Origin: a bacterium
Lineage (GTDB): Bacteria; Patescibacteriota; Doudnabacteria; UBA920; VMFF01
Length of the DNA: 54,137 nucleotides
Reading direction: 5' to 3'
Assembly: GCA_021811585.1 (NCBI GenBank)
Contig: JAJZOG010000011.1
Span: forward strand, 1-54,137
The first letter of the stretch is position 1. Each line of letters begins with the position of its first letter. A model generated the notes under the pieces. It was given only the letters and a program-made list of their open reading frames with translations, had not been told where the DNA came from and ran no database searches. Made by a program: the position numbers and the translations under genes. Positions 10,358 through 54,137 of the stretch are shown in pieces.

Positions 10358-10400
10358 TTGTTTCAAATTTAAAGAATGTACCTACATTATAACATGAATC

Positions 10401-10466: not shown

Positions 10467-10540
10467 TGTAATTTTGGCTATTGGCAAATTGTGCCCTGGC
10501 AAGCAAAATAGCCACAAGAAGGCAAAGGAGGATTGCCGAG

Positions 10541-38974: not shown

Positions 38975-39123
38975 CGTATTTTATATACCTTTTATACCCT
39001 GCCCTGATTAAAATTTTATTAAATGCGCGGCCTCCACCTGTTCACGCTATATTTCACATTATATTACAACCTTATCGCCAAATTTATTTCAAATGCCCCC
39101 AAAAACAGCTTAGCAGACGGGAT

Positions 39124-39170
39124 TTTAGGTTTTAGGTTGGGGGTTTGGGTTGGGGGTTTGGGTTGGACCC
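39124..39170. repeat. GGGTCCAACCC element at a stop codon
   Basis: Read on the minus strand it begins GGGTCCAACCCAAACCCCC, then AACCCAAACCCCCAACCT and AAAACCT. The first G of the element is also the G of the TAG stop of the membrane-protein gene ending at 39170. It lies in the spacer before the adaptor gene. Same family as copies at 46438, 47261, 50887 and 54011. Confidence 0.85.
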
Positions 39171-39958
39171 TAATGAAACCAATGCAAGAGGGTTTGCCAG
39201 AAACCTTCCCAAAAACCTCGCCGGTGCGCGCCGGTATTTCGAATAATTTTTATCATGCGCTCCTGGATCGCATTACCTTGCTTGGGTCCAAAAATTATTG
39301 CCATGCGGCTGTCTTTAAGCCCGCCGGGAACAGGCATGGATGCCAATGGCTCCGGAAAATTCTCCTGCATTCCGCTCGAGGATGCCGAGGAATAAACATA
39401 TACCTTTGTGCCGTTATCGGTGATTGCCTGCCATCTGCCGCTGCCGTCAGGGACAATGTCCCGGACCACGGCAATATTGCTGCTGTCAAAATCTTTTCCC
39501 CGATAGGCGCGATAAAATTGTCCGAAAACCGGCACATCATTTTTTCTCGCAAATCTGGAAAATCTTTCGTGGAAAGAAATTATATGCAAGGCAATGCTCG
39601 CAAGTGTTATAAGCGCGATGATAATCACCGGCAAATATAACAGCGGCTTCCTGTATGCAAACGAGTAGCGCCGCAGAAGCCATCCTATTATAAATGTGAA
39701 AACCAGGGCGACAAGCACGTGAGTCCACGGGAAGAGCAGGAAAAATATCAGCAAGCCCGGCCTGCCGAACATGGGCAAAAACCTGATGTTGCTCTCCCGA
39801 AGAATATAAAAAATAAAGCTCACGGAAAAGATGGAAATTACAAAAAGCAAAATCGTCGCCAAAATTACGAATGCAGTCCGCAAAGCAAAATAAATTTTCG
39901 GGCGCTTTTTCAATTCGCCTTTTTTTATTTTATCGATTATGTCTTTTTTAATATCCAT
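39170..39958 (-). CDS. Membrane protein downstream of the ECF sigma gene
   Basis: 262 residues, not assigned to a family. It has a basic cytoplasmic N-terminus, three or four hydrophobic segments (about 25-52, 65-90, 105-130), then an extracytoplasmic domain of about 130 residues (RFARKNDVPVFGQFYRAYRG, AVVRDIVPDGSGRWQAITDNGTKVYVY). It follows the sigma factor by 63 bases on the same strand, the usual place for an anti-sigma factor, but I see no zinc-binding anti-sigma motif, so the regulatory role is only suggested. Its TAG stop is fused to the dispersed repeat element. Confidence 0.6.
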   Translation of the reverse strand: MDIKKDIIDKIKKGELKKRPKIYFALRTAFVILATILLFVISIFSVSFIFYILRESNIRFLPMFGRPGLLIFFLLFPWTHVLVALVFTFIIGWLLRRYSFAYRKPLLYLPVIIIALITLASIALHIISFHERFSRFARKNDVPVFGQFYRAYRGKDFDSSNIAVVRDIVPDGSGRWQAITDNGTKVYVYSSASSSGMQENFPEPLASMPVPGGLKDSRMAIIFGPKQGNAIQERMIKIIRNTGAHRRGFWEGFWQTLLHWFH

Positions 39959-40021
39959 GTTGTTTTAAATAATCTGCCGCTTGATGCTTAATATCCATTT
40001 CATTTCACTAATGCTGCCGCT

Positions 40022-40573
40022 TTATGCCAATTTATCATATTCTTTTTTTAAATACTGCCTGCCGCGAGCCAGGCGCACGCCCACCGTGGCAACCGGTATT
40101 CTTAAAATATCGGCTATCTCTTTGTAATCAAAACCCTCGATGTAATAAAGCACCAGCGGCTCGCGGTATTTTATATCCAATTTTCGCAGCGAGGAATCCA
40201 AAATTTCCTTTGACTGGCGCAGGTTGATCTCGTCTTCGTGCTTTTCTTTCGGAATCTGCGGGAACAAAACATCAAGGTCGAAAAACGGAATTTTCTCGAG
40301 CTTGTTCCTCTTCAGGAAATTCACGCATTCATTATGCGCTATCCTGTATATCCAGGAAGAAAATTTTCTGCCCGTGTCAAAACTTTCTATGTTCCTGTAG
40401 GCCTTGATGAACGTTTCCTGGACAACATCTTCGGCGTCCCGGGCATCAAATAAAAATTTTGCCGCATAGCGCTGGAGCTTGCCTTCATACCTTTGCATCA
40501 GGACTGAAAATTTTTCATCCCTTCCGCGCTGAACGTCTGCGGCCGCGGATTCGTCGCTTTGCTCAATTATCAT
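40022..40573 (-). CDS. ECF-type RNA polymerase sigma factor
   Basis: 183 residues. Sigma region 2 is clear (DARDAEDVVQETFIKAYRNIESFDTGRKFSSWIYRIAHNECVNFLKR), as is region 4 with its helix-turn-helix (KYREPLVLYYIEGFDYKEIADILRIPVATVGVRLARGRQYLKK); regions 1 and 3 are missing, as in group IV sigma factors. An inverted repeat CCGCTT/AAGCGG (40608-40624) lies about 40 bases upstream and could be a regulatory site. Its partner membrane protein and a MacAB-like transporter follow on the same strand and are plausible targets. Confidence 0.93.
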   Translation of the reverse strand: MIIEQSDESAAADVQRGRDEKFSVLMQRYEGKLQRYAAKFLFDARDAEDVVQETFIKAYRNIESFDTGRKFSSWIYRIAHNECVNFLKRNKLEKIPFFDLDVLFPQIPKEKHEDEINLRQSKEILDSSLRKLDIKYREPLVLYYIEGFDYKEIADILRIPVATVGVRLARGRQYLKKEYDKLA

Positions 40574-40642
40574 TATGTCTTACGAACTATATTACAAAAT
40601 TATGCAGCCGCTTATTTCAAGCGGTAATTGGAAGTATATAAA

Positions 40643-40673
40643 AAACACCCGCGTTTGGAAAGCGCGGGTGTTT
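40643..40673 (-). terminator. Terminator after the exported-protein genes
   Basis: AAACACCCGCG (40643-40653) pairs with CGCGGGTGTTT (40663-40673), 9-base loop; on the minus strand it is followed by TTTTTATATA. It ends the transcript of the genes at 41672-42007 and 40848-41675 and separates them from the sigma factor. Confidence 0.8.
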
Positions 40674-40697
40674 GAAAACTTTGTTTTTCACTTATAA

Positions 40698-40789
40698 CCG
40701 GATTACTCCATGGCATCTATCCGATCTACTCCATGGCATGTGTCCGGCCTATTCCATGGCATCTATCCGACTCATTTCATGGCATGGCC
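40698..40789. repeat. Four 23-nt tandem units with a CCATGG core
   Basis: Units at 40698-40720, 40721-40743, 40744-40766 and 40767-40789, all exactly 23 bases. Three contain TCCATGGCAT and the fourth TTCATGGCAT. They lie in the 3' spacer between the exported-protein gene and its terminator, so they are transcribed but not coding. There are no spacers between units. Confidence 0.85.
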
Positions 40790-40847
40790 AAAGGACCCTA
40801 AAATTTTCTTTCATTTGCCGTTTATTTTTTTCACGGCTCCGGATTGC

Positions 40848-41675
40848 CTACTGGCCTTGGCTTTGGGCTCCGGATTGGCTTGAAGAATTTTTATCGCCTG
40901 ATCCTGCCGGGAAAGCCGCCCTCAAAGCCGCAACAGCTGTTTTCAAAGCATTTTCATAAGTTTGCACTGCCTGCGCCAGCGCTTCGTTGCGCGTATGCAC
41001 AAGCGCTGAAACCTGTGGGCCAACTTTATCCACGCTACGCATGGCCTGCTGCCTTGCTTGCCTTGCGGAAGCAAGTGCCGCAAAAAATGTCTGCCTTACT
41101 TGGGAAGGCGCGGTGCCTGCCGCGCAGCTGCTTTGTGCCTGCGTTATTGCTGCTTGCACTGCTGTCAAATAATTTTCAAACGCCTGGTCAATTGCAGTCC
41201 TGTGCCCGATAATAATCTGCTCCAGCCCCTGCCAAAACGCAGTGCGTGCCGCATCCACAGCGGATTCCCGCGCACTTGCAGCGCTCTCTATTGCCTGCTG
41301 AAACGCCGCGACCGCTTGTTTTTGCTCTGTTGTTGCCGCGCGAGCGCTCAAATGGGCATAAATTTTTTGCCTGTTCTGCTCCCAGTTCGCGCGCTGCTGA
41401 TCCAAAGTTTGCGTCTCTTGCGTTTGATGCTCCTGCGCCTGCGAATCCTCGCGGCTTATTCTGTCTTTTAAATTGGAAATTTGCCGGCTGATTGCCGCGG
41501 CATAGGTTTGCCCCCTCGCGGACAATGCCGTACAAAAAGCCGAACCCGCGGTTCGCGCAGATGTATTGGCTTCTGCCGATGCCGTGGCAACCTGATGCCT
41601 TGAGGCCGCAAGCGCCGGAGCTGCAACCAACGCCAAAGACAACGCGATTGATGAAATTAATTTTATCTTTTTCAT
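40848..41675 (-). CDS. Exported helical protein
   Basis: 275 residues. Signal peptide MKKIKLISSIALSLALVAAPALA with likely cleavage after ALA at residue 23. The mature part is almost entirely helical and rich in Ala, Gln and Arg, with heptad-like segments (RQISNLKDRISREDSQAQEHQ; TAFWQGLEQIIIGHRTAIDQAFENYLTAVQAAI), and two cysteines (FCTAL and SSCAAG) that could form a disulphide. The tail is Ser/Gln/Gly-rich. I recognise this type only as a Patescibacteria secreted coiled-coil protein; function unknown. It overlaps the upstream gene by four bases. Confidence 0.7.
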   Translation of the reverse strand: MKKIKLISSIALSLALVAAPALAASRHQVATASAEANTSARTAGSAFCTALSARGQTYAAAISRQISNLKDRISREDSQAQEHQTQETQTLDQQRANWEQNRQKIYAHLSARAATTEQKQAVAAFQQAIESAASARESAVDAARTAFWQGLEQIIIGHRTAIDQAFENYLTAVQAAITQAQSSCAAGTAPSQVRQTFFAALASARQARQQAMRSVDKVGPQVSALVHTRNEALAQAVQTYENALKTAVAALRAAFPAGSGDKNSSSQSGAQSQGQ

Positions 41676-42007
41676 TGTATTGGATTATTTACTGAATCAA
41701 GCGAAGAATTGGAGCTCGAACCGTCGGTCGAAACGCTCTGCGCATCCGATGCGCCATCCTGCGAAACCGTTGCATATGAATTTGTGCCTTCAGTTCCCAA
41801 GGAATTCAAATCAACTCCTGAGACAGAACCCACATTCGCCGCCTGCGGCGCAGGAACCTGCGACTGCCCGGCTTGCGAACTTTCAACCGAATTCGAATTA
41901 CTGCCGGTTTGGGCATATTGCCCGCCGTTGCTGCTCCTAATAAGAACCGAGGCGACAACCGCCAAGGCAATTATTACAACTGCCCAAATTATGTATTTTG
42001 TTTTCAT
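41672..42007 (-). CDS. Signal-anchored Ser/Gln-rich surface protein
   Basis: 111 residues. Residues 5-23 are hydrophobic (IIWAVVIIALAVVASVLI); the rest is low-complexity Ser, Asn, Gln and Gly, so probably a disordered extracytoplasmic stalk. No cysteine or catalytic motif. It is the first gene of the two-gene unit with the exported helical protein, with a clear promoter and an 11-bp leader hairpin. Role unknown. Confidence 0.65.
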   Translation of the reverse strand: MKTKYIIWAVVIIALAVVASVLIRSSNGGQYAQTGSNSNSVESSQAGQSQVPAPQAANVGSVSGVDLNSLGTEGTNSYATVSQDGASDAQSVSTDGSSSNSSLDSVNNPIQ

Positions 42008-42053
42008 GTTTAATTATTATATTTAATAATGCTTTGCCTCCCGAATCGTGCAA

Positions 42054-42084
42054 GCATTAAAAGGCACGACCTCCCTTTTAATGC
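42054..42084 (-). promoter_or_regulatory. Leader stem-loop
   Basis: Perfect 11-bp stem, GCATTAAAAGG (42054-42064) with CCTTTTAATGC (42074-42084), 9-base loop, between the promoter at 42098 and the start at 42007. On the RNA the loop reads GAGGTCGTG and so exposes a GAGG. No T-tract follows. A control element for the exported-protein operon is possible. Confidence 0.5.
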
Positions 42085-42097
42085 CAAACTTAAACGC

Positions 42098-42126
42098 ATT
42101 ATAGGGCCTTTGCAAATCGTGCGCAA
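42098..42126 (-). promoter_or_regulatory. Promoter of the exported-protein operon
   Basis: Minus strand TTGCGC (42121-42126), 17-base spacer, perfect TATAAT (42098-42103). The leader to the ATG at 42007 is about 85 bases and includes the stem-loop at 42054-42084. Confidence 0.65.
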
Positions 42127-42248
42127 CAAAAGAATCCACAGGCATTCGCAAAAAATTTCTTTTTTCATGCAAATGCTCTAAACTACATATAAACATATAT
42201 TATATGAATGATGCTCTATAAATGACGGCGAATGACACCGACATATAA

Positions 42249-43864
42249 ATGATAGTGCAAAGATACAAAAAATTGCTTTTTATATGCCTGGCGGTTTTGC
42301 TGGCAACCCTTGATGCGGCAAGCGCATTTGCTGCCGCCAAAATTGCTTCTGCCAAAAATTTTAATCTTCGGGTTTCTGTAAACGGACAATTATTTTCAAT
42401 AGATTCCGATAATGCTGGCGCGCCGCGAAATGCCGCGCAAATCCTCAAAAGCATCTGGACAGGCGCGCCCTTATATTCCGCCAAAGCGCTAAAGCAAACC
42501 ATTGCCAGCATAGCGACAAAAACAGACGTGCCTCCCAAAAATTATTCCATTTCTGCTGCAAACGGCAACGTTTATGTGGACACGGCAACTGCTCCTGGAA
42601 AAATTCTTAACCAGCAAACGGCTTTCCTGAAAATAACCGCGGCCATTGAAAACCATGAAAAAAAAATGGCCTTGGACTCAACTGTCCTGGAGCCGCAGGT
42701 GAGCATAACGAATGCGCAAAAGGCCGCGGCACAGGCAAACCTGCTCCTTGAAAAAGATTTATGGATTTCTTATAACGGGCATGTTATGCAAGTGCCGCGG
42801 CAAACAATCGCCGGATGGATTGGTTCTGTCCCCAGCGGCGCTGATGACCTGGAAATTTATCTCGACAAAAACAAGGTCGCCCAAACCCTGCGTTCGCTAA
42901 CGGAACAATATGATTCCGCTCCAAAAGAAATGGTTTTGGATCTGAACAGCCAAAATAAAAATTCGAATTTCATACCGCCTGTCACCGGAACGCAGGCAAA
43001 CACAAGCTTGGGGTCTGATCAAATTATAAATCTCTATTCGGAAGCGCTCGCGAGGAAAACTTCGGATTCGGGAAACAAAAATTCTCCGTTGAACATTGAG
43101 CTGATTACAATCCAGCCGCCTGTTCCTGATTCAGCCGCAAAATTAGGGATTGTCTCTGAAATCGGCACAGGCGCAACCACTTTTTACGACAGCTCAAATG
43201 CAAGAATACACAACATTAAAATCGGCGCAAATGCGCTTAATAATATTTTAATCGGCCCGGACAAGAATTTTCAACTCTAAATGCCCTTGGCGCAATAAAT
43301 GCGGCGCAGGGTTATGTGCCGGAACTTTCCATAATCGGAAACCAAACAATTCCCGAATACGGCGGCGGCTTATGCCAAATTGCGACAACGCTGTTTAGGG
43401 CAGTGTTAAACACTGGCCTGCCCGTAACTGATCGACAAAATCATTCTTACCGCGTTTCTTATTACGAACGCGACGGCAATGGCAAGTACATTGGCCCGGG
43501 GCTTGATGCCACAATCTATTCGCCTGCACCGGATTTCAAATTTGTGAATGATACAGGACACTGGATTCTTCTCACAAGCAAAGTGCAAGGCCTTCAACTT
43601 TCATTCACAATGTATGGAACTCCGGATGGCAGAAAAGTGCAAATTGACGGCCCAAAAATTCTTTCATCCTTGCCCGCGCCGGCGCCGGTTTACGAATACA
43701 CTTCAAAACTCCAGCCAGGCCAAACAATACAAACCGATATAGCACATCCCGGAGGCAGAACGACTGTTACCTATACTGTCACACATGCTGACGGCACCGT
43801 AAAAAAACAAATTTTCAACAGTTATTACGAGCCCTGGCCCGCAAGATATTTGGTTGGAAAATAA
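42249..43864 (+). pseudogene. VanW-family protein, frameshifted
   Basis: VanW (YoaR-like) envelope protein split into two frames. The first (42249-43280) has a signal peptide (about 1-27), a peptidoglycan-binding-4-like region and the start of VanW (GTGATTFYDSSNARIHNIKIGANALNNILIGPDKNF). It then stops prematurely. The VanW domain resumes in the -1 frame as STLNALGAINAAQGYVPEL, then GGGLCQIATTLFRAVLNTGLPVTDR and RVSYYERDGNGKYIGPGLDATIY, to 43864. The join is at the TTTT run 43268-43271; one extra T restores the complete domain. A real one-base deletion, a homopolymer assembly error or ribosomal slippage on T-TTT-C are all possible. Confidence 0.85.
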
Positions 43865-43867
43865 AAA

Positions 43868-43894
43868 CCCGTTCCACAAACAGCGTGGAACGGG
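43868..43894 (-). terminator. Terminator for the minus-strand gene at 43937
   Basis: CCCGTTCCAC (43868-43877) pairs with GTGGAACGGG (43885-43894), 7-base loop. On the minus strand TTTTTATTTT follows, so it terminates the gene ending at 43937. On the plus strand GGAAATT follows, so it does not look active for VanW. Confidence 0.75.
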
Positions 43895-43936
43895 GAAATT
43901 CAGAAGGTGTGGCAGGGCTTACATCACGTTACCTCA

Positions 43937-44413
43937 CTAGTTAGCCACTAGTAAGATAGGTATGCAAGCAAACGCAAAGCCGGACACTTTTGTAAGCAGG
44001 GCGCGATCCCTGCGCCCCACCGACATTACTGCCGGCATGACCACTTCTCCGTATTGGTCTTCTGCCAGCGTTCCCGGCGCAGCGCACCAGGTTTCAAGGC
44101 CAAATAAAGAATAGGCCTTTTTAATTTGTAACAGATGCCAATAATGCCCATAAGACAGGTTCTTGGGTAGCATGGCCGCTGTATTTACCCAATCAAAGCT
44201 GGGTTCGGTTTTCATTATAATGCACTTAAACGGGCTGAGCCGCGAGCCGGACGGCAGCGAAATTTGTTTTTTGTTTATTTCAGGCACTTTAAAAAATGGT
44301 CTGAATAAACTTTCGCTATGATCTTCGACTTCGTCAAAGGCCATAATCATTTCCCGTTCATCGCTCAGAACGGGTTGGACGATAAATTCGTCCAAAATAG
44401 TCATTACCGACAT
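43937..44413 (-). CDS. Hypothetical protein with strong expression signals
   Basis: 158 residues from the ATG at 44413, chosen because AAGGAGGG lies three bases upstream; the longer frame would swallow the SD. No family recognised. Mixed alpha/beta composition: MTILDEFIVQPVLSDEREMIMAFDEVEDHSESLF, SRLSPFKCIIMKTEPSFDWVNTA, LSYGHYWHLLQIKKAYSLFGLETW, and a hydrophobic C-terminus (GFAFACIPILLV) that could be a short tail. Bounded by a promoter (44458-44486) and its own terminator, so monocistronic. The strong SD is unlike most genes here and resembles the genes at 3993, 10541 and 53630. Confidence 0.6.
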   Translation of the reverse strand: MSVMTILDEFIVQPVLSDEREMIMAFDEVEDHSESLFRPFFKVPEINKKQISLPSGSRLSPFKCIIMKTEPSFDWVNTAAMLPKNLSYGHYWHLLQIKKAYSLFGLETWCAAPGTLAEDQYGEVVMPAVMSVGRRDRALLTKVSGFAFACIPILLVAN

Positions 44414-44457
44414 ATTCCCTCCTTGTCTTTTCATTCACTGAAAACTTGCCAAAACCA

Positions 44458-44486
44458 ATTATACCTTAACTACTTCAATTTGTCCA
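44458..44486 (-). promoter_or_regulatory. Promoter of the gene at 43937-44413
   Basis: Minus strand TGGACA (44481-44486), 17-base spacer, TATAAT (44458-44463). Initiation near 44451, about 38 bases before the ATG. Confidence 0.7.
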
Positions 44487-44508
44487 CAAAGAAGCACCGT
44501 GGTAAACT
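44480..44508 (+). promoter_or_regulatory. Candidate promoter of the pseudopilin cluster
   Basis: Plus strand TTGTCC (44480-44485), 17-base spacer, TAAACT (44503-44508), about 36 bases before the pilin ATG at 44544. Its -35 overlaps the -35 of the divergent minus-strand promoter, so the two would compete for polymerase. Confidence 0.5.
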
Positions 44509-44543
44509 ATTAAAAATGCCGAACGTACTTTAGCGCAAACGAA

Positions 44544-46436
44544 ATGAAAACAAAAAACAAACAAACCGGCTTCACTCCAATTCAACAAAGCTTCATTCCG
44601 ACGGAACAAAGCTTCAATCCAGTCCAACAAAACAGCTTCACACTAACGGAACAAAGTTCCACTCCAATTCAACAAAACGGTTTCACTCTAATTGAAATTG
44701 TGGTAAGCATAGGAATTTTCGCCATACTTCTTGTTGGCATAATCAGCGCCTACAATTTGATGGCGCGCGGGGTTCGCGCTTTTCGGGAGCAGGCAACAAT
44801 TGCCGCGCTCGCGGACCAATACCTGGAAACCGCGCGCAATCTTCCCTATTCGCAAATAGGGACAACAAGCGGCAACCCGCACGGCAACCTTCCGGACCAA
44901 ACAGACCCGGCAACAAACAGCATCAATGGCGTGAATTATCAAATTTACTATGACATTGCCTACATTGACGATCCGGCTGATGACGCCACAGATACCTATC
45001 CCAACGATTACAAACAAGTGAAAGTTTATGTAAAAAATGAAAACACAGATGCGCTTGAAAGTTTTATTACCACAATCGCGCCGCAAGGCGAAGAAAGTTT
45101 GGCTTCAGGCGGCGAATTGCAGATTTCGGTTATTAACGCGGTGGGCCAGCCTGTTGCCGGCGCTTCGGTCCAAATTACAAATACTTCCATTTCTCCAAGC
45201 ATTAATGTTACACGGACAACGGACGCAAACGGCAATTGGGATGAAGCCGGCCTGCCTGACAGCGTCAACGGCTATCATATTGTTGTCACAAAATCAGGAT
45301 ATTCCATTGACCAAACCTACCCCATAACGCCGCAAAATCCAAACCCAGTTAAACCGGATGCCACAATTTCAAACGGCCAAATTACACAGGTAAGCTTTGC
45401 CATTGATTTGCTCAGCAATCTTACGATTGAAACTTTAAACCAGAAATGTTCGGCGATTTCCGGAGTCGGCACAAATGTACAAGGCGCAAAACTGATTGGC
45501 ACAAACCCCAATATTCCGAAATTCGATAATACTTTCACTTCCGATTCCAGCGGCAGCATAAATATGAATGGGATTGAATGGGATACTTACACTCCCACGC
45601 TCACTGATCCCGCGTATATGATTTACGGCTCATCGCCAATCCAGCAAATAAGCTTACTGCCAAACACCAGCGCGCTTTTCACTCTTATATTAGGACCCGC
45701 GACCGCCAACAGTTTGCTTGTAATAGTAAAAGACGCCGGCGGCAATCCCGTGGAAGGCGCCAATGTTGATTTGCAAACCATAACTCCGGCCAGCGACACC
45801 AACCAAACAACAGGCGGAAGCGTTTGGCTGCAAAACGATTGGTCCGGCGGATTCGGACAAGCGGATTGGTCAAGCCCTTCCATGTACTACCAAGACAGCG
45901 GCACAGTAAACACCGCAACAGCCGGACAAGTGGCGCTTTCACAGGCAAGCGGCGGAGGCGGAGGCACATATTCAAGTTCCGGGTGGCTGGAGTCCTCGTC
46001 TTTTGATACCGGATCAAGCCGCACATCTTATACTACTTTGGATTGGCAGCCGACTTCCCAAAATCCTTCCACCAGCATCTCTTTCCAAATAGCGACAAAT
46101 AATGACGATAAAACCTGGAATTTTTTGGGACCAAACGGGACTACCGGCAGTTTTTACACTGTGCCCGGCACAACCATAAGTTCAGCGAACAACGGAAACC
46201 GGTATGTGCGCTACAAAGTTTATTTTTCGACAAACGACACCTCCAAAACGCCCGTACTCACGAGCGTGGGCATAAATTATGTTTCCGGATGTTTCACTCC
46301 AGGGCAAACCATTTTCCCGGGCCTCACAGCAGGGTCCAATTACAATGTTATTGTGAGCGCGACCGGATATACCACGCAAACCTTCAATAACGTGGATATT
46401 AACGGATACAATGTTTTGGATGTGACACTGCAGTAA
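44544..46436 (+). CDS. Large type IV pilin-like protein with nested surface domains
   Basis: 630 residues. Prepilin motif G46-FTLIE (F47, E51) followed by the hydrophobic helix IVVSIGIFAILLVGIISAYNLM. The leader is unusually long (46 residues) because it contains five degenerate copies of the motif. The ectodomain has a carboxypeptidase-regulatory-like beta sandwich (ISVINAVGQPVAGASVQI; GYHIVVTKSGY, about 190-265) and a second such domain (NSLLVIVKDAGGNPVEGANVDL) that resumes only at GSNYNVIVSATGYTTQTFNNV. Between them a discoidin-like sandwich of about 160 residues is inserted. Probably a surface-exposed minor pilin or adhesin at a pilus tip. The TAA stop is followed by one base and then the dispersed element. 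Confidence 0.85.
   Translation: MKTKNKQTGFTPIQQSFIPTEQSFNPVQQNSFTLTEQSSTPIQQNGFTLIEIVVSIGIFAILLVGIISAYNLMARGVRAFREQATIAALADQYLETARNLPYSQIGTTSGNPHGNLPDQTDPATNSINGVNYQIYYDIAYIDDPADDATDTYPNDYKQVKVYVKNENTDALESFITTIAPQGEESLASGGELQISVINAVGQPVAGASVQITNTSISPSINVTRTTDANGNWDEAGLPDSVNGYHIVVTKSGYSIDQTYPITPQNPNPVKPDATISNGQITQVSFAIDLLSNLTIETLNQKCSAISGVGTNVQGAKLIGTNPNIPKFDNTFTSDSSGSINMNGIEWDTYTPTLTDPAYMIYGSSPIQQISLLPNTSALFTLILGPATANSLLVIVKDAGGNPVEGANVDLQTITPASDTNQTTGGSVWLQNDWSGGFGQADWSSPSMYYQDSGTVNTATAGQVALSQASGGGGGTYSSSGWLESSSFDTGSSRTSYTTLDWQPTSQNPSTSISFQIATNNDDKTWNFLGPNGTTGSFYTVPGTTISSANNGNRYVRYKVYFSTNDTSKTPVLTSVGINYVSGCFTPGQTIFPGLTAGSNYNVIVSATGYTTQTFNNVDINGYNVLDVTLQ
44568..44696. repeat. Degenerate repeats echoing the prepilin motif
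   Basis: Five imperfect units of 21-24 bases built on GCTTCAnTCCAATTCAACAAA precede the genuine GGTTTCACTCTAATTGAA. They translate as GFTPIQQ, SFIPTEQ, SFNPVQQN, SFTLTEQ and STPIQQN, then GFTLIE. Only the first copy has Gly at -1, and it has Gln where the essential Glu at +5 should be, so only the last unit is a good prepilin-peptidase site. Confidence 0.75.
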
Positions 46437-46437
46437 C

Positions 46438-46489
46438 GGGTCCAACCCAAACCCCCAACCTAATACCCCAACCTAATACCCCAACCTAA
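46438..46489. repeat. GGGTCCAACCC element after the large pilin gene
   Basis: Plus-strand copy: GGGTCCAACCCAAACCCCC, then AACCTAATACCCC twice and AACCTAAAA. It starts two bases after the TAA of the pilin gene. The preceding CTGCAGTA is the same as at the DedA gene end (CTGCAGTAGGGTCC). Same orientation relative to the upstream gene as at 39170 and 51030. Confidence 0.85.
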
Positions 46490-46570
46490 AATTTTCAGCG
46501 CCCATATTTCTCGCTTATCCAAGCCGAAAATTATCCATATTAATCAAATCATCACAAAAATTTAATAAAA

Positions 46571-47182
46571 ATGAAAGAAAAAGGATTTACATTAATAGAG
46601 GTGATTGTTTCTATAGCAATTTTTGCGCTGTTATTTACCGGGGTTGTAGAATTAGTGGGGAAAATTTTTACCCAGGCTGGCGGACAATCGCTACTTCTAA
46701 GCAACGCGGATCAGGCGCGTAAAATAGTTTTCGCCTTTGCGGATGAAATTCGGAACGCCACATACGGGAATGACGGTTCATATCCCGTCGCCGAAGCGAA
46801 CGATCAAGAAATAATTTTTTTTAGCAGTGAGCCGCAGAACCCGCAAATAGCTGATAAAATCCGTTATTACATTTCCGGAAACGCCCTGTATCGCGGAATT
46901 ACAGTACCGAGTGGGAGTCCACTTTCCTACAATGGCGCAAACGAACAAAGCACCAAAATTGAGGATACCGTCGCAAACGGGACGACGCCACTGTTTTATT
47001 ATTATGACGGAAATTATGATGGTACAACTTCGCCGCTCACGCAACCTGTAAATTTGACCCAAATTAGATTTATCAAAATAAATATGGTAATTCCCAATCC
47101 TGCCGGCACGCAAACAAACAATACTTTCCCGATAACAGGAGGGGCAACTCTCAGAAATTTAAAGACAAATTTAGGCGATTAA
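46571..47182 (+). CDS. Type IV pilin-like protein (PulJ/PilW type)
   Basis: 203 residues. Short leader MKEKG and prepilin motif GFTLIEVIVSIAIFALLFTGVVELV with E at +5; the ectodomain starts QAGGQSLLLSNADQARKIVFAFADEIRNATYG, the usual DExRNA-type layout of PulJ/PilW minor pseudopilins. It probably joins the large pilin and the PilX-like protein in one tip complex. No SD is visible; the gene follows the large pilin after 134 bases that include the dispersed element. It is spaced four bases from the next gene. Confidence 0.88.
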   Translation: MKEKGFTLIEVIVSIAIFALLFTGVVELVGKIFTQAGGQSLLLSNADQARKIVFAFADEIRNATYGNDGSYPVAEANDQEIIFFSSEPQNPQIADKIRYYISGNALYRGITVPSGSPLSYNGANEQSTKIEDTVANGTTPLFYYYDGNYDGTTSPLTQPVNLTQIRFIKINMVIPNPAGTQTNNTFPITGGATLRNLKTNLGD

Positions 47183-47186
47183 TTAA

Positions 47187-48668
47187 ATGAAAATTAAATT
47201 TAACAAAAATAAAATAAAAACTAAAGCCAAAGCTGCCAAAAACTGCCAAACCAATATTCAGGTTAGGGGTTCAGGTCGGGGGTTCAGGTCGGGGGTTTGG
47301 GTTGGACCCCAATGCGGAAGCATGCTCATCTATCTGGTCGTCATTATTTTTATTTTTTCCTTGGTGATGCTCCCCATTTTGAGCAACATCGTCAAAGAAA
47401 TGCAGGTTCTGCGATCTTCAACTTACCGCGAAGAAGCGCTGCAAATCGCCGACGCCGGCGTAAATTATTACCAATGGCACCTCGCGCATTTTCCCACGGA
47501 TTATCAAGACGGCACGAACGCGCCGGGCCCATACGTGCACAATTATGTAGACACATCAACCCAGCAAACCATCGGCGAATTCAGTTTAAGCATCACCCCG
47601 CCTCTCGCTGGCTCCACAATCGTCACAATCATATCCACGGGCTGGACAAACAGCGATCCAAATATTAAAAGAACAGTAACCGCGCGCTACGGAATTCCCT
47701 CTCTGGCGCGCTACGCATTCCTCAGCAACGATGTTGTCTGGATAGGCAGCCAGGAAAATGTCTCGGGCACGCTCATGTCCAACAACGGCGTTCGCTTTGA
47801 CGGCACTACAAACGCGCCGGTTGAATCGGCAAAATCAACCTACACGTGCCCTGCTTCCCAGGGAACTCCATGCCCGGCAACTGAAAACGGCGTTTGGGGC
47901 GCAGGCAATTCAAATTTCTGGCAATATCCCGTTCCTGCCGTTGATTTCTCCAGCTTAACCGCAACAATGGCAAACCTGCAAAACCTGGCGCAAAGCGGCG
48001 GAATATTTTTGCCGCCTTCAAACGCACAGGGCTATTCCCTGGTTTTCAACAGCGACGGCACTGTGAGCGTCTACAAAGTTACCAGCTTGCAAGGCAATCC
48101 CCAAGGATGGGATGTCTACGGCAGGCCTCAACACCAGAACACAGATTACAACAACAGGACGCTTCTTTTTACAGACCCAATCCCATCCAACGGAATAATT
48201 TATGTCGAAGATACAACTTGGGTTGAAGGCACGGTAAACGGCCGCGCAACGGTTGCCGCGGGGATGCTGCCGTACAATCCGAATTCATCTCCTTCAATTT
48301 ATATTCCCAACAGCATAACCTATGCGGCAAAAGACGGCTCAGATGTCCTTGGGTTGATCGCCCAAAACAATCTTGCGCTCACATACCACGCCCCGGCGAG
48401 CATGGAAGTTGATGCTGTCCTTGTTGCTGAAAATGGGAGCGTACAATTCTTTTATTACCCCGACAATGTTAAAAATACGCTCACGGTTTTCGGTTCCATA
48501 ATCACTTACGGGCAATGGACGTGGACCTGGCTAAATGGCCAAGGCCAGCCGCAAGCAGGATATGAAACCACTTATGATACTTATGATGCAAATTTGCTAT
48601 ACAGTCCTCCGCCAAGCTTTCCGCTTTCAAATTCAGGGTATCAACTCTTAAGCTGGTCAAGCAATTAA
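47187..48668 (+). CDS. PilX-like pseudopilin-cluster protein carrying an in-frame repeat element
   Basis: 493 residues. After a basic N-terminus comes the hydrophobic helix SMLIYLVVIIFIFSLVMLPIL and EEALQIADAGVNYYQWHLAHF, typical of PilX/pilus-assembly proteins lacking the Glu5 of canonical pilins. The ectodomain is beta-rich and large (about 420 residues) with VEGTVNGRATVAAG- and DVLGLIAQNNLALTYHAPASMEVDAVLVAENGSVQ, a beta-helix-like region also seen in DUF4900-type proteins. Residues 25-43 are encoded by an inverted copy of the dispersed element, inserted without breaking the frame just before the G44-S45 junction. Confidence 0.8.
   Translation: MKIKFNKNKIKTKAKAAKNCQTNIQVRGSGRGFRSGVWVGPQCGSMLIYLVVIIFIFSLVMLPILSNIVKEMQVLRSSTYREEALQIADAGVNYYQWHLAHFPTDYQDGTNAPGPYVHNYVDTSTQQTIGEFSLSITPPLAGSTIVTIISTGWTNSDPNIKRTVTARYGIPSLARYAFLSNDVVWIGSQENVSGTLMSNNGVRFDGTTNAPVESAKSTYTCPASQGTPCPATENGVWGAGNSNFWQYPVPAVDFSSLTATMANLQNLAQSGGIFLPPSNAQGYSLVFNSDGTVSVYKVTSLQGNPQGWDVYGRPQHQNTDYNNRTLLFTDPIPSNGIIYVEDTTWVEGTVNGRATVAAGMLPYNPNSSPSIYIPNSITYAAKDGSDVLGLIAQNNLALTYHAPASMEVDAVLVAENGSVQFFYYPDNVKNTLTVFGSIITYGQWTWTWLNGQGQPQAGYETTYDTYDANLLYSPPPSFPLSNSGYQLLSWSSN
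47261..47310. repeat. Inverted copy of the dispersed element inside a CDS
   Basis: GGTTAGGGGTTCAGGTCGGG continues through GGGTTTGGGTTGGACCCC on the plus strand; the reverse complement begins GGGTCCAACCCAAACCCCC, as in the other copies. Here it lies in the opposite orientation to its gene and is translated as a Gly/Arg/Val-rich stretch. Confidence 0.8.
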
Positions 48669-48704
48669 ACGAAAATAATTCAAGAAATTAATTAGATACG
48701 CTCC

Positions 48705-49103
48705 ATGAAAACTCTCCAACCAATCCAGTCGACAAATTTTAATAATTCCGCGCTCCAGCCGCTTCCTTTTAATATCGTTCCAAATATTTCGGGAAATATA
48801 AACTACACGGCGCCAGGCAGTTCAAACCAAAGTGCAGGCGCTACCGGATCGGGCACTTCCGGCTCGGGCTCGGGCGCAACAACCGGCTCAAGCGCAACCG
48901 GCGCAGGAAACGGGATTTCGGGCGCTCAAATGCAAAATGAAAATTCCGGGAATGCACAGCAAACGGCAAATTCCGCTGCCGCGGAAATTAAAAATCTAAG
49001 CAGTGCGATAAAAAAACCCGCCAACTATCCTTGGATCATAATAGGGCTTATGGCAGCTCTTTTGATTCTCGCCTATATTTTGAAGAAAATCGAAAAAAAA
49101 TAG
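48705..49103 (+). CDS. C-tail-anchored low-complexity protein of the pilin cluster
   Basis: 132 residues, no recognised family. The N-terminal half is Asn/Gln/Pro-rich, followed by a Gly/Ser/Thr/Ala low-complexity linker (about 45-75), a short amphipathic stretch (AAAEIKNLSSAIKKP) and one C-terminal membrane helix (YPWIIIGLMAALLILAYIL) with a basic end. No signal peptide, so tail-anchored or positioned through the C-terminal helix. It follows the PilX-like gene by 36 bases, so probably an accessory of the same pilus. Confidence 0.65.
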   Translation: MKTLQPIQSTNFNNSALQPLPFNIVPNISGNINYTAPGSSNQSAGATGSGTSGSGSGATTGSSATGAGNGISGAQMQNENSGNAQQTANSAAAEIKNLSSAIKKPANYPWIIIGLMAALLILAYILKKIEKK

Positions 49104-49110
49104 TTCACGC

Positions 49111-49692
49111 TTACTCCAATTTTCTAAACACATAACCTTGCCGGGCAAGCTCCGGCAGGCAAATTCTCAGCGCTTCGGCAGTGCGGCCGCGTTTTGCATG
49201 AACAAGTGTTTTTTCGCCGTCATGTAAAAGGATAATTGCCCCCGGGCCGGCGCGTTTAACAATCCTCCGCGCCATCCATTGCGCGCTTGGCTGCCACCAA
49301 TCATAAGCATGCAAATCCCAGGAAAAAAATTTATAACCGGCGCGCTCCAGTTTCCGGCGCGCTGATTTAGGAATTTTTCCCCACGGTGCGCGCAGCAAAC
49401 GCGGCGCAAACCCGATGATTTGGCGCAAGGCCTCTCCTGTTTTTAAAAATTCCCGCGCAAGCGCGCGTCCGAAAAAAATATTGCGCCAGGCATGCGCATA
49501 AGAATGGTTGCCCAAAGCATGCCCCTGTGCGGCAATCCGCCTCACAAGCTCGGGGTTTCTCAACGCATTTTTTCCGCAGACAAAAAAAGTCGCCTCAGCT
49601 CCGTTTTGCGCCAAAATTTCCAAAATCTCCTCTGTGCATGGCGGGTTTGGCCCGTCATCAAAAGTGAAATATAAAATTTTCCGCCCGTTCAT
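49111..49692 (-). CDS. Polysaccharide deacetylase (NodB domain)
   Basis: 193 residues, carbohydrate esterase family 4. Catalytic base and metal ligands: TFDDGPNPP (motif 1, residues 9-17), HSYAH (motif 2), RAPWGK (motif 3), and ILLHDG near the C-terminus. No signal peptide, so it acts in the cytoplasm or is exported another way. Likely removes N- or O-acetyl groups from peptidoglycan or a surface glycan. Its start lies inside the end of the GT2 gene (35-base overlap), in a region of repeated start-like units. Confidence 0.92.
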   Translation of the reverse strand: MNGRKILYFTFDDGPNPPCTEEILEILAQNGAEATFFVCGKNALRNPELVRRIAAQGHALGNHSYAHAWRNIFFGRALAREFLKTGEALRQIIGFAPRLLRAPWGKIPKSARRKLERAGYKFFSWDLHAYDWWQPSAQWMARRIVKRAGPGAIILLHDGEKTLVHAKRGRTAEALRICLPELARQGYVFRKLE

Positions 49693-50779
49693 TTTGCCCT
49701 TTCATTTCCGCTCGTTCATTTTTGCCTGCCATTTTGCCCTGCCATTTTGCTCGTTCATTTTTTGGCCTGCCATTATTCAAATTGCCAAGCCGCCTCAACC
49801 GCTGCTTAATGGCAGGATGAAAATTCCAACGCAAATCTTTTACTCCGCGATCAACCCTCAAATCCACGTTTCGCGCGCCGGCATCCAAAAAGGCGTCGGC
49901 GCCGGCGCCGGCTTTTTGAGCGCCGAGATAAATCCTTTCCGCCCCGCTGCCGCCGAATTTCGCCGCGCGCGCAAAAATTGCGCCGTGCGTAAATACCGTG
50001 GCAGCCGCCAAAACCACTGCCAAAGGCCACGCATAAGCAATCGGCGAAATTGATTCATGCCTGATTGGCGGCAATTCATTTTTATAATTCTTACCAAAAA
50101 AATCGCGCGAGACAACGTTGGGAACATATCCGTAGGCAGCGGCCCAAAACCCTTTTCTATACCTGCGGCCAGAGGTCGCCACAATCAGCTTCTTATCCAG
50201 GACAACCTTGCCATAGCGTGAAAGTTTTTTTGAAAGCTCGCCGTCTTCGCCCATTTTCAAATTAGTATTAAAACCGCCGGATTTTAGAAAAACATTTTTT
50301 AGTACAGCCATATTTGCGCCCGGGAGAATCCAGCAGCCGGTCCATCTTTTTTCCAATTTCCAGGCATAGTATGCTCCGCGCGGAAATAACATTCGGGTCA
50401 AAAGCGGTCCAGAGACGAGCTTGTAGAGGCCGCCATAAGCGACGACATTCCTTTTTGCGGAAAATTTTGCCGCGATTTTGGAAAGCCAGTTCTCGGGCAA
50501 AATTGTATCCGCGTCGGTGGTTGCGATGATTTCGCCGCGCGCGCATTCAAAACCTTTTTGGCGCGCATAAGCCACGCCGGCCCTGGTTTCAAAAACAACT
50601 TTTGCCCCGCCGCGCAAAGCAATGTGCGCGGTTTTGTCCGTGGAATTATTATCAACAACAATAACCTCGAAATTCTTATAATCCTGCCTGGCAACACTTG
50701 CCAAGGTCCTGGCCAGGAAATGCTCTTCGTTAAATGCGGGGATCACTATTGAAATTAAAGGATTTCTCCGGTTTTTCAT
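49658..50779 (-). CDS. GT2 family glycosyltransferase
   Basis: 373 residues from ATG 50779. GT-A domain: ISIVIPAFNEEHFLARTLASVARQDYKNFEVIVVDNNSTD, DxD-type TTDADT, LPGANMAVLKNVFLKSGGFNTNLKMGEDGELSKKL. One hydrophobic segment follows (PIAYAWPLAVVLAAATVF), then a basic C-terminus ending in repeat-derived sequence. It transfers a sugar from a nucleotide donor, probably to a surface glycan; the deacetylase downstream may modify the same polymer. A GTG six codons upstream is an alternative start: an 18-base segment containing the start codon (TTTAGTTRTGAAAAAC) is tandemly duplicated there. Confidence 0.9.
   Translation of the reverse strand: MKNRRNPLISIVIPAFNEEHFLARTLASVARQDYKNFEVIVVDNNSTDKTAHIALRGGAKVVFETRAGVAYARQKGFECARGEIIATTDADTILPENWLSKIAAKFSAKRNVVAYGGLYKLVSGPLLTRMLFPRGAYYAWKLEKRWTGCWILPGANMAVLKNVFLKSGGFNTNLKMGEDGELSKKLSRYGKVVLDKKLIVATSGRRYRKGFWAAAYGYVPNVVSRDFFGKNYKNELPPIRHESISPIAYAWPLAVVLAAATVFTHGAIFARAAKFGGSGAERIYLGAQKAGAGADAFLDAGARNVDLRVDRGVKDLRWNFHPAIKQRLRRLGNLNNGRPKNERAKWQGKMAGKNERAEMKGQNERAENFIFHF
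49690..49775. repeat. Repeated start-codon-like units at the GT2/deacetylase junction
   Basis: On the minus strand ATGAACGAGC occurs twice and ATGAACGGGC once (the last is the true deacetylase start), separated by AAAATGGCAGGGC and AAAATGGCAGGC copies. The units encode the last 30 or so residues of the GT2 protein (KNERAKWQGKMAGKNERA). It looks as if the deacetylase start region had been copied upstream into the neighbouring gene. Confidence 0.7.
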
Positions 50780-50886
50780 AACTAAACTGTTTTTCACAAC
50801 TAAACTTAATTTTAGGGTTTAAAAATTATGGTTTTAGGCTTTTAATATTGAGGATTTAGGTTGAATTTAAGTAAAATTTGCATTTT

Positions 50887-51037
50887 GGGTTGGGGGTTTG
50901 GGTTGGGGGTTTGGGTTGGGGGTTTAGGTTGGGGGTTTGGGTTGGACCCTACTGCATGGGGGTTTGGGTTGGACCCTACTGCATGGGGGTTTGGGTTGGA
51001 CCCTACTGCATGGGGGTTTGGGTTGGACCCTACTGCA
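50887..51037. repeat. Largest dispersed-element array: 13-nt and 27-nt tandem units
   Basis: Plus strand: four 13-base units of GGGTTGGGGGTTT (50887-50938, one with A at position 1), then 27-base units from GGACCCTACTGCATGGGGG at 50944, 50971 and 50998 and a partial fourth at 51025. On the minus strand each 27-base unit contains TGCAGTAGGGTCCAACCC, so the last codon and TAG stop of the DedA gene are copied in every unit. All six frames stay open over long stretches, but only because of the repeats. Confidence 0.9.
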
Positions 51038-51620
51038 GGATTCGCTGGGCCAGACCTGTCCTCACGAAAATAAGATACAAAATTATAACCATAATGACAA
51101 CCCCAAACGTTATTATGCCCAAATAAAAATTCAAATGCGCGTAGGCCTTGCCAAAATAATATCCTGCAACAATTAATACTGCACTTTTAATTGCCGTTGA
51201 AATGGAATTCGCGGCCGCGACTTTTTTGTAGCCCACATTGGCAATGCCAGCGGCCGCCAAAGTCACAGCACCAAACCCGTGCAAAAATTTAGCTACAAAC
51301 AACGTTTTAAAAGAATGCTTTTTAAAATGACTTTCCAATTTCGCAACCCTGTCCATTGTTACCCCGATGTAATGGCCTTTTGTCCTGATAAACTTTTCCC
51401 TGCCAAACCTGCCCATGGAATAATAAAGCAAATCGCCTATAAAATCCCCGAGCGCGACCGTAATATAGGCGAGAAAAATATTCATTAAGCCGATGGACGC
51501 CAAAAATCCCGAGAAAAAAGTAATAACCGGCCCTTCAACAACGGCAATGGAAAAAATAATCAAATATTTAAATTTTAAAAACCAGGAAATATGCGATAAA
51601 TGCCCGACATCAATAAGCAT
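51030..51620 (-). CDS. DedA/VTT-domain membrane protein
   Basis: 196 residues, SNARE-associated/DedA type. Membrane segments at about 18-45, 50-72, 130-150 and 165-190; core motif VVEGPVITFFSGFLASIG, DFIGDLLYYSMGRFGREKFI and HSFKTLFVAKFLHGFGAVTLAAAG. DedA-family proteins are lipid (undecaprenyl or phospholipid) transporters or scramblases, or act in envelope homeostasis. The start lies one base after the MFS stop. The final codons CTG-CAG-TAG pass straight into the dispersed repeat array. Confidence 0.88.
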   Translation of the reverse strand: MLIDVGHLSHISWFLKFKYLIIFSIAVVEGPVITFFSGFLASIGLMNIFLAYITVALGDFIGDLLYYSMGRFGREKFIRTKGHYIGVTMDRVAKLESHFKKHSFKTLFVAKFLHGFGAVTLAAAGIANVGYKKVAAANSISTAIKSAVLIVAGYYFGKAYAHLNFYLGIITFGVVIMVIILYLIFVRTGLAQRILQ

Positions 51621-51621
51621 A

Positions 51622-52851
51622 TTATTTCTCCTCGAGCCCGGACGGCTCCGGAACCAACATCAAAAATTCATCTTTTTGCCTTGAAACAGACCAAGCGAAC
51701 ACAAACAAAACAAACATGCCGATTATCACCGCGCCAAAGCTTGCGGCAAAAATATCGGCTGAAAACATCAGCGCCAAATACAAGAGCGCGCGCAAACCCA
51801 TGCGCGTGAGATTGCGGTATGTCACGGCGTTTAAAATTCCCCTCTGGGTTCCGCGCTCAAATGTCGCCACATCCAAAGGAATGTCTATGAAGATCGCCAT
51901 AATGGCAATTAGAAAAACGCTTGCATACGAAACCACCGGGTTATTTATAAACGAAACGCGTAAAATCCAAACCGCAAAAACCGCGAGCGCTCCAAAAGCT
52001 ATCATTCTATAAATGTTCCGCCGCACGCTGAATTTGCCACTTATGTATGTAAAAATGAGGCCGGCAAGGGAAATAATTACCGGGATGTATGCCGCGGCGC
52101 GAATGCTCACAAACAGAAAAAAAATAAAAAACGGCCAGATTGTATCTTCCACTTCCGCCTGCAAAGCCGCAAAAGCTCCCATAAGATAATTGATCTTTTC
52201 CAATGGCCTGGAAAAAAATTCTTTTGCGCGCGAAGGCGCAACATCCGGCTTGAATTCGGCGTGCTTCATCATGGAAAGCGGAATAAGCGAACCCAGCATC
52301 AGGAAAGTTGTTGCGAAAATCAAAGTTTTTTGCCCCGCGGCAATGAGCAATAAGGCGCCAATGGCCGGCGCAAGCAAGCCGCCGATTGTGCGGACAATGT
52401 TCAGAGCCGAAACGTCCCCGCGCATTTTCTCGGTTTTGTGCGCTGCCTGCGCAAAAATATAGAGGTGTGAAACCCAATAAAAAGAATCAAAAATCGCCAT
52501 GAAAAAAGCCATGGCAGCAAGCCAGGCAAAGCTGTGCGAAAGGTTGAAAAAAATAATCAGAAAAATCAGTTCGGCAATAATGGAAAAAATCAGCGCGGTT
52601 TTCGCGCCCATTCGCACAATCACCTTGCGGGCCGCCAAATTAAAAGGGACATCAATGGCATTAAATAAAAAATAAAAAGCCATTATTTGGAAAATGGGAA
52701 ACCCGATCATCCACAAAATTATGGGGACAAAAACCGAAATCAGCGATTGCGCAAATGCCTGTATCCAAACGCTAAGCTCGAAGAGGTGCATATCAGTGCC
52801 AAACAATTCTCTCAGATGTTCGTTGTAGGAGTAAAAGTAACGAAGATTCAT
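51622..52851 (-). CDS. Major facilitator superfamily transporter
   Basis: 409 residues with 12 likely membrane helices. A basic loop (RKVIVRMGAKTA) after helix 2 and YFLFNAIDVPFNLAARK fit MFS; helix 4-5 SFYWVSHLYIFAQAAHKTEKMRGDVSALNIVRTIGGLLAPAIGALLL resembles the motif around the A-like loop. No substrate-specific signature. It is the first gene of the MFS-DedA-GT2-deacetylase minus-strand series, which may build or export a surface glycan; that link is inference. Confidence 0.85.
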   Translation of the reverse strand: MNLRYFYSYNEHLRELFGTDMHLFELSVWIQAFAQSLISVFVPIILWMIGFPIFQIMAFYFLFNAIDVPFNLAARKVIVRMGAKTALIFSIIAELIFLIIFFNLSHSFAWLAAMAFFMAIFDSFYWVSHLYIFAQAAHKTEKMRGDVSALNIVRTIGGLLAPAIGALLLIAAGQKTLIFATTFLMLGSLIPLSMMKHAEFKPDVAPSRAKEFFSRPLEKINYLMGAFAALQAEVEDTIWPFFIFFLFVSIRAAAYIPVIISLAGLIFTYISGKFSVRRNIYRMIAFGALAVFAVWILRVSFINNPVVSYASVFLIAIMAIFIDIPLDVATFERGTQRGILNAVTYRNLTRMGLRALLYLALMFSADIFAASFGAVIIGMFVLFVFAWSVSRQKDEFLMLVPEPSGLEEK

Positions 52852-52879
52852 ATGGAAATCCTAAAACTTTTAAGCGTTA

Positions 52880-53160
52880 ATATCATTTAATATTATGGAA
52901 TGCTATTTGGCGTTCGAAAACTTGCCCGATTAATTTGCATATTATGCGTCTTATGCGTCGCCAATACGCATCGCCAAACTTGCATATTATGCGGAATTAA
53001 TGATTATACGGAGTTAATAACATTTTAACATAAATAAAATATTATTGGCATTTGTCTATTATATTAAAGCATTTATATTAAAGCATATTAAAACATTTAT
53101 ATTAAAGCATTCTGCAACTATTAAGATATGAAAGCTATTTATTAAAGCTATTAAAGATAT
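52880..53160. repeat. AT-rich spacer of short degenerate repeats
   Basis: Spacer 52852-53285 (434 bases) without a gene. TTGCATATTATGCG occurs at 52935-52948 and 52980-52993; between them ATGCGTCGCCAA and ACGCATCGCCAA form another pair. From 53060 ATTAAAGCATTTAT-like units recur about five times, then AAAGCTATTTATTAAAGCTATTAAAG. On the minus strand CATAAT boxes recur upstream of the MFS gene and may be duplicated promoter pieces. Confidence 0.6.
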
Positions 53161-53207
53161 TCCTGGAATTTAGCGCTCCACCGCATTTCTGCAGGATGGT
53201 TTGTGAT

Positions 53208-53236
53208 TTGCACAAATTTGCGGGTTTTGGCATAAT
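53208..53236 (+). promoter_or_regulatory. Promoter of the small-gene pair
   Basis: TTGCAC (53208-53213), 17-base spacer, CATAAT (53231-53236). Initiation near 53243, about 43 bases before the ATG at 53286. Confidence 0.55.
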
Positions 53237-53285
53237 TGGTGCAAGTTTGCAGTTTCAAACTCAAGTTCAAGGGGGAACATAATAC

Positions 53286-53615
53286 ATGATGGTTCAAGCG
53301 GCGACAGCGGTACGGATGGCACGCGTCATACAAAACCCGTCCGGCCTGCCGGACAGTTTTATATGGAATGGACGCAGAGGCCTTGTTATGTATTCGCCAG
53401 AATTTTCTCGAGCATTTGCGAGGATCACTGACGAATCACAACAAGCGAGTGCAGAATTTCGGGCCAAACTCGGGCAATTGTGCCTGGTTGGACCAAACGC
53501 ATTTTGCACGCGTAAAAACATAACGCGCGTGCATAAGCGGTTTTCTGTTGAGTGGAAGCATCAAGGAGGAATCTTAATGATGCTTTCAATTATTTCGGGT
53601 GTTCATCAATCTTAA
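53286..53615 (+). CDS. Hypothetical 109-residue protein
   Basis: Unrecognised. The ATG at 53286 is preceded by AAGGGGGAA at a suitable distance and by a promoter. Composition is ordinary (PEFSRAFARITDESQQASAEFRAKLGQL), without membrane segment or signal peptide. Within its 3' end there is a second strong SD (AAGGAGG at 53562-53568) before an in-frame ATG at 53577, which would give only a 12-residue peptide (MMLSIISGVHQS), so either product is possible. The next gene starts 14 bases after the stop. Confidence 0.5.
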   Translation: MMVQAATAVRMARVIQNPSGLPDSFIWNGRRGLVMYSPEFSRAFARITDESQQASAEFRAKLGQLCLVGPNAFCTRKNITRVHKRFSVEWKHQGGILMMLSIISGVHQS

Positions 53616-53629
53616 AAGGAGGATTGTGC

Positions 53630-53989
53630 ATGTACTTGGCGTGGGCAGCGACGTTGGGAATTGGTGTGGGATGGCTCACAAGTATTTATTCTCGATTGAG
53701 CGGCCATCCATTTGTTGTGACCTTTTTGCTAACTATGGTATGGGCCACGTTAGTTTTCCGGCTCGCCATAGTAGCAAAAAACAAATTTCAACTAGTTACG
53801 GGCGGAATCGGGGGATTCTTAATCCTCGGATTCCTACTCCGAAATGTCCCCATATCTCCGTGGGGCCTCGTGACCCTGACCGGCCTTTATGGCGGCTTTG
53901 TTGTCGCCGTATGGGTCCACAACATTGATACAAATTTTTCTACCAGAGAGAAGCAGGCCGCCGGCTCCTCAACTCATCCTTCGGGATGA
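53630..53989 (+). CDS. Small four-helix membrane protein
   Basis: 119 residues. AAAAGGAGGA lies six bases before the ATG. Hydrophobic segments at about 4-20, 28-46, 55-72 and 80-97; the C-terminal 20 residues are polar (NFSTREKQAAGSS). No family recognised; the size and layout fit small holin- or phage-shock-like membrane proteins, but there is no specific motif. The stop codon TGA lies inside the terminator hairpin. Co-transcribed with the gene at 53286. Confidence 0.65.
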   Translation: MYLAWAATLGIGVGWLTSIYSRLSGHPFVVTFLLTMVWATLVFRLAIVAKNKFQLVTGGIGGFLILGFLLRNVPISPWGLVTLTGLYGGFVVAVWVHNIDTNFSTREKQAAGSSTHPSG

Positions 53990-53998
53990 GTTTTTTTT
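53971..53998 (+). terminator. Terminator with a UUCG tetraloop, overlapping a stop codon
   Basis: AACTCATCC (53971-53979), loop TTCG, GGATGAGTT (53984-53992), then Ts to 53998. The TGA stop (53987-53989) of the upstream gene is in the 3' arm. The C(UUCG)G tetraloop is exceptionally stable. Confidence 0.85.
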
Positions 53999-54010
53999 GA
54001 TCAGGGCCCA

Positions 54011-54076
54011 GGGTCCAACCCAAACCCCCAACCTAAACCCCTGATCCAAACCCCCAATCTAAAACCCTAACCTAAA
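54011..54076. repeat. GGGTCCAACCC element at the right edge
   Basis: Plus-strand copy after the terminator at 53971-53998: GGGTCCAACCCAAACCCCC, then AACCTAAACCCCTGATCC, AAACCCCCAATCTAAAACCC and TAACCTAA. It is less regular than the copies at 39 and 51 kb but has the same head. The remaining 61 bases to the window end are AT-rich and show no feature. Confidence 0.8.
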
Positions 54077-54137
54077 AAATAATGCACTTTTAAAGGACTT
54101 TTTATTAACTTCTTCTTAAATACTTAACAAAAAACCC

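Follow-up and report, generated by a model that had tools for sequence, protein, structure and literature searches.

A gene-boundary repeat of a small patescibacterial genome as the very probable terminus of a RAYT-linked mobile element family

Background

Classical REPs are marked by a GTAG tag. The genes of REP-associated tyrosine transposases (RAYT) are flanked by inverted REPs (Nunvar 2010, PMC2817692), the REPINs have been described by Bertels and Rainey (2011, PMC3116915), and TIRtrons, with the transposases denoted TIRYT, are described by Di Nocera et al. (2013, PMC3733652). According to the same article, REP termini often supply a TAG stop to the flanking ORFs, and in Escherichia coli, REPs located within 15 nt of stop codons are reported to cause ribosome stalling (cited in PMC12306157). 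A search of the openly licensed literature for Patescibacteria or Parcubacteria combined with REP terms retrieved nothing.

The repeat analyzed here, a 19-base sequence (GGGTCCAACCCAAACCCCC, hereafter the head), is dispersed in a 54,137-nt stretch of patescibacterial DNA (the window, i.e., the whole stretch that was analyzed). The original prediction described it as a telomere-like element fused to stop codons and belonging to no named family. The latter statement does not hold: with a probability of roughly 90%, the head is the terminus of a REP/TIR-type mobile family (REPtron/TIRtron, REPIN-like) that is driven by one RAYT-class Y1 HUH transposase. The family is real, well supported and of a known kind; the precision with which it meets start codons is the part worth following.

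The head repeat in the window

The window contains 8 exact copies of the head compared to 0.01 expected by chance, and all five sites that had been listed for the telomere-like sequence match, namely 39152-39170 (-), 46438-46456 (+), 47291-47309 (-), 50931-51030 (-) and 54011-54029 (+), the fourth of which consists of four exact heads in tandem with a 27-bp unit. Four of these sites are solo ends, whereas the fifth is a pair that the end of the contig interrupts. The solo end at 39120..39170 (-), the head followed by about two 13-bp C-rich repeats, completes the TAG of ORF 39170-39958(-), and the one at 50883..51030 (-), with four heads and then 13-bp repeats, completes the TAG of ORF 51030-51620(-), a DedA-type gene in which VTT_dom was found; the claim that the first G of the head completes the stop codon is exact in both cases. 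The 27-bp tandem unit combines 20 bases of the head region with TGCAGTA from the gene end. The solo end at 46438..46490 (+), also carrying 13-bp repeats, adjoins the pilin ORF 44544-46436(+); here the head indeed follows a TAA, as had been stated, and the gap is one base, not two. The last solo end, 47260..47309 (-), is located within the N-terminal part of ORF 47187-48668, a pilin-cluster gene with which it is in frame, and its head is the single exception to the correctly noted tendency of the head, at four of the five sites, to lead away from the 3' end of a gene. Within 47187-47330, the in-frame element adds about twenty residues ahead of a hydrophobic segment of this ORF, for which an alternative start directly after the element is possible. 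At 54011..54137 (+), the contig end truncates a 178-bp MITE/REPIN-like pair, of which the right end and a portion of the core are left; these 127 bp are the same, except for a few bases, as the intact copy G000:C6:9847-10024.

A degenerate relative had also been proposed at 10401-10466. This region turned out to be a separate stem-loop with GGGTTCAACCC and without the C-rich array; its kinship with the head element is unproven, and the two are not clearly related. The strong stem-loop spans 10396-10470, with a stem of at least 14 bp and a second GGGTTCAACCC palindrome (z -4.9), and only one other GGGTTCAACCC is present in the genome, at C7:140020. Another repeat of the window, a tandem array of the 14-bp unit GTTGGTAGTTAGTA at 21091-21183, lies just upstream of the start of ORF 18666-21086(-).

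A genome-wide family of inverted pairs and single ends

The genome-wide head search that had been named beforehand as a check identifies 33 copies (≤3 mismatches) in the 0.75-Mb genome, more than the few seen in the window, compared to 0 for the reversed control; the 11-base core GGGTCCAACCC does not occur anywhere in the genome outside the element family. Many heads form inverted pairs, i.e., units of 178, 181 or 194 bp in which two ends in inverted orientation surround a short AT-rich core. The head itself contains an imperfect palindrome (GGGT-CCA-ACCC), 13-bp C-rich subterminal repeats come after it, and the element termini conform to GGGTCCAACCCAA[AT][AC]CCCC. Folded as DNA, one paired unit forms a single hairpin (z = -9.9), in the manner of MITEs and REPINs. 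Within each of the two main pair types, the copies differ at 1-6 of about 180 positions, and this near-identity points to recent spread. Four contig ends, including the one at the window copy at 54011, fall about 119-127 bp inside paired units, which suggests that the assembly broke there. For the eight solo copies, no partner ends were detected above background; their heads are intact, which counts against a mobile element given that REP singlets normally decay.

Among the 54 regions that G4Hunter scores as positive on nine contigs (threshold 1.5, counted from the listing), 30 are within the elements, as are 4 of the 8 strict quadruplex motifs. The quadruplex potential ascribed to the G-rich strand is thus present in sequence terms, and formation of a quadruplex by this strand is possible.

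The transposase-bearing copy and its relatives

The longest unit (805 bp, G000:C2:29278-30082, outside the window) encodes a 194-aa Y1 (HUH) transposase, the only one in the genome. Over about their first 50 bases, the left and right ends of this copy are almost the same as the corresponding ends of the 178-bp unit. The neighboring genes are convergent, and the element fills the space between them to the last base. The core of the paired element shows no visible derivation from the transposase gene, which counts against the mobile-family reading. The protein matches the Pfam profile Y1_Tnp (PF01797) at 8.5e-13, and its only family match, NCBIfam REP_Tyr_transpos (NF047646), scores 48.9 bits, below its cut-off of 80, which counts against the assignment. 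All 21 aligned transposases match NF047646 and only one of them matches the IS200 model; a profile of 21 relatives matches TnpArep (PDB 4er8) at 6e-5, and the HUH motif and the catalytic tyrosine (H60, H62, Y120) are invariant in these 21 relatives. Judging by these sequence comparisons, the 194-aa protein probably belongs with the RAYT.

An exact head was found in none of 59 other genomes, the species-genome set and viral contigs; the only match there is a single coding one with 2 mismatches, in genome G045. As no other genome searched has the head, empty sites were not available for comparison; this counts against the mobile reading, and the mobility of the element is presumed. A protein scan of genome contigs yielded no relatives either. 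Homologous transposases are nevertheless present in 16 of 49 genomes of the order and, at a stricter limit, in 26 of 333 genomes of the phylum (own genome included in both counts), all the phylum genomes being uniformly small, at 0.5-1.5 Mb, a range suggestive of Patescibacteria/CPR. Flanking inverted repeats were identified at 31 of 45 homologous loci, with many palindromes of the form RGG-N5-CCY, and in 11 of the 31 repeat-flanked loci, own locus included, an edge is within 3 nt of a codon boundary. Genome G037 contains 12 matches of its own palindrome, several of them away from the transposase and some arranged as REPIN-like inverted doublets (e.g., L119 and L121, where AGTGTCAAAGGTGCTCTTTGCC is followed by its inverse, the RAYT of G037 having the same palindrome). 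The same-family genome G002 has a head-like repeat of its own, AGGTTCAACCT, which is confined to the transposase. The search of related genomes that had been suggested thus gave a divided answer, with the exact head confined to its own genome and homologous RAYT loci in the relatives behaving alike.

Contact with gene boundaries

Distances to gene boundaries, another check named beforehand, were tabulated on nine contigs (474 kb) with 436 genes from a home-made caller. In 15 of 30 cases, the outer edge of an element is no more than 2 nt away from a called start or stop, compared to 1.3% of random intergenic positions (binomial p ~7e-21; such p-values are only indicative because the gene calls are home-made, short original spacers can let both edges of one unit touch boundaries together, and the sites themselves served to train the motif). 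Placement is therefore non-random with respect to gene ends, with about half of the junctions located away from any gene boundary. Left ends account for most of the contacts (10 of 12 touch a boundary), followed by solo ends (3 of 8) and right ends (2 of 10). The eight stop contacts have offsets of -1, -1, -1, -1, 0, 1, 1 and 2, and four complete a TAG. Of the seven start contacts, six are at exactly 2 nt from the natural ATG; five of the seven genes carry Pfam domains of pepF, pilC, typA, smpB and a tRNA-binding protein; of the remaining two, the first matches phosphoglucose isomerase and the second encodes a short protein without a match. Fusion to stop codons is accordingly half of the picture, and the function or targeted insertion proposed at gene ends captures a placement far beyond chance while missing that starts are contacted nearly as often.

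In most cases, the left end at a start codon reads TTGGACCC-RT-ATG, so that GGA begins at -8; the weak GGA signal of the genome peaks at -9 and -8. The exact 2-nt spacing to natural starts together with GGA at -8 leads to the hypothesis that the element end stands in for a ribosome-binding site, the GGA of the head perhaps replacing the displaced one. Preference for a target sequence was considered as the entire cause of the contacts and is insufficient: weighting positions by the flank motif predicts contact of left ends in only 10% (starts) and 1% (stops) of cases. Boundary contact is thus not fully explained, a point against the mobile-family reading.

As a separate observation on gene starts, TATAAT-like boxes peak at -12 before the start codons in 18 of 159 genes with long upstream gaps (G000 contigs C7, C6, C10, C9, C2, C13, C1 and C17, and the window), which suggests that a fraction of the genes is leaderless.

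Mechanism and alternative explanations

CATAY is found before half of the left ends (6 of 12) and before none of the 10 right and 8 solo ends, and no target-site duplication was detected at the element edges. A one-sided target without duplication fits single-strand insertion as in IS200/IS605 and, by analogy, in RAYT elements. The transposase would act in trans on the family, presumably recognizing the palindromic end structure on single-stranded DNA and cutting after the short left-flank target CATAY, after which the unit would be pasted elsewhere; single ends would be remnants or one-ended products. Such RAYT-driven single-strand transposition with a one-sided target would then be followed by selection against gene damage, and insertions would persist where the stop codon survives or where the ribosome-binding site is replaced. 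At stops, the first G of the head can complete the TAG, and erosion of spacer DNA may add to these contacts.

Just outside left ends, there are tandem duplications of the flank plus a head prefix with units of 12, 12, 17 and 27 bp (window 50931-51030; L009, L025 and L027 around 1480-1500). Three perfect 12-mers were found in 30 edges compared to 0.3% of random positions, and these duplications might, tentatively, result from replication stalling at the head.

Several explanations of the placement have to be weighed against transposition followed by selection. Loose intergenic insertion with subsequent loss of non-coding DNA up to the codon boundary would explain the placement and is compatible with the mobile-element identity; the pile-up of stop offsets at the tolerable limit and the 805-bp element wedged between its convergent neighbors speak for such erosion, but random erosion would not leave six of seven starts at exactly 2 nt with the same letters (GT or AT before ATG), so that we regard it as possible, if on the improbable side. 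The suggestion that the host retains the repeat as a transcript-end or translation-control device, with ribosome stalling near stops and a ribosome-binding sequence at starts, draws on the edges at codon boundaries (15 of 30), on the reported stalling cited in PMC12306157, on the coincidence of GGA at -8 with the GGA peak of the genome, and on the intact heads of solo copies. Such a device nonetheless appears unlikely: paired copies of nearly the same sequence and a transposase within the family are the anatomy of mobile DNA, and about half of the junctions are off any boundary. A role at transcript ends only, as originally considered, is at odds with the same inverted-pair, transposase-bearing anatomy. 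Equally unlikely is the stronger proposal that transposition, or strong selection acting on it, places the elements with nucleotide precision, the end being a portable boundary part that completes a stop codon for the gene on one side and provides a ribosome-binding sequence to a start codon on the other; if this is true, it would allow mobile DNA to persist in a genome that has hardly any DNA to spare.

A DNA-uptake or recombination signal, also raised originally, is hardly credible. The head is short, repeated and asymmetric, and type IV pilin-like genes are nearby in the window, but an arrangement in long inverted pairs, with a transposase inside one pair, does not fit such a signal, the head is absent from the relatives searched, and there are only about 33 copies in 0.75 Mb, whereas known uptake signals are far more numerous. 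The inverted-pair, transposase-bearing anatomy also rules out a telomere. The identification of a mobile family thus corrects a tempting telomere or uptake-signal reading of the sequence, and RAYT-linked REP/REPIN-like elements that spread recently in very small, gene-dense genomes make it possible to test how mobile DNA could occupy gene boundaries harmlessly.

Comparison with known systems

The transposase gene lies between two inverted REPs that are also dispersed as inverted doublets, as in REPtrons and REPINs. As in REPIN-RAYT systems, a single transposase is flanked by inverted REPs, hairpin-folding inverted doublets and singlets are dispersed, and termini supply TAG stops, the last habit being described in PMC3733652. 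Unlike in these systems, the palindrome is very short, the units are longer (178-194 bp), the copies number only in the tens, start codons are contacted in many cases, and a GTAG (or CGTC) tag next to the palindrome is absent: the head begins with GGGTCC, and GTAG is seen only at places where GTA comes from the flanking gene. The element also resembles the TIRtrons and TIRYT of the same article, with a Y1 gene between long terminal inverted repeats that lack GTAG, form a family and also occur singly and as dimers. It differs in that GGGGWSAS, a motif of some but not all TIRtrons, is absent from these termini, and in its 13-bp C/G-rich arrays and host group, which the portion consulted of the TIRtron description does not include. 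With IS200/IS605, the element shares a Y1 HUH transposase, an apparent one-sided flank target and the lack of target duplication; in contrast to IS200/IS605, its termini are inverted repeats, and the transposase is nearer to the RAYT model than to the IS200 model. Thus, fusion to stop codons is an already reported habit of REPs (PMC3733652) and the kind of element, REPtron/TIRtron, is known; the new features are the 13-bp arrays rich in C/G, the contacts with start codons, for which the head possibly supplies a ribosome-binding site, and the host group.
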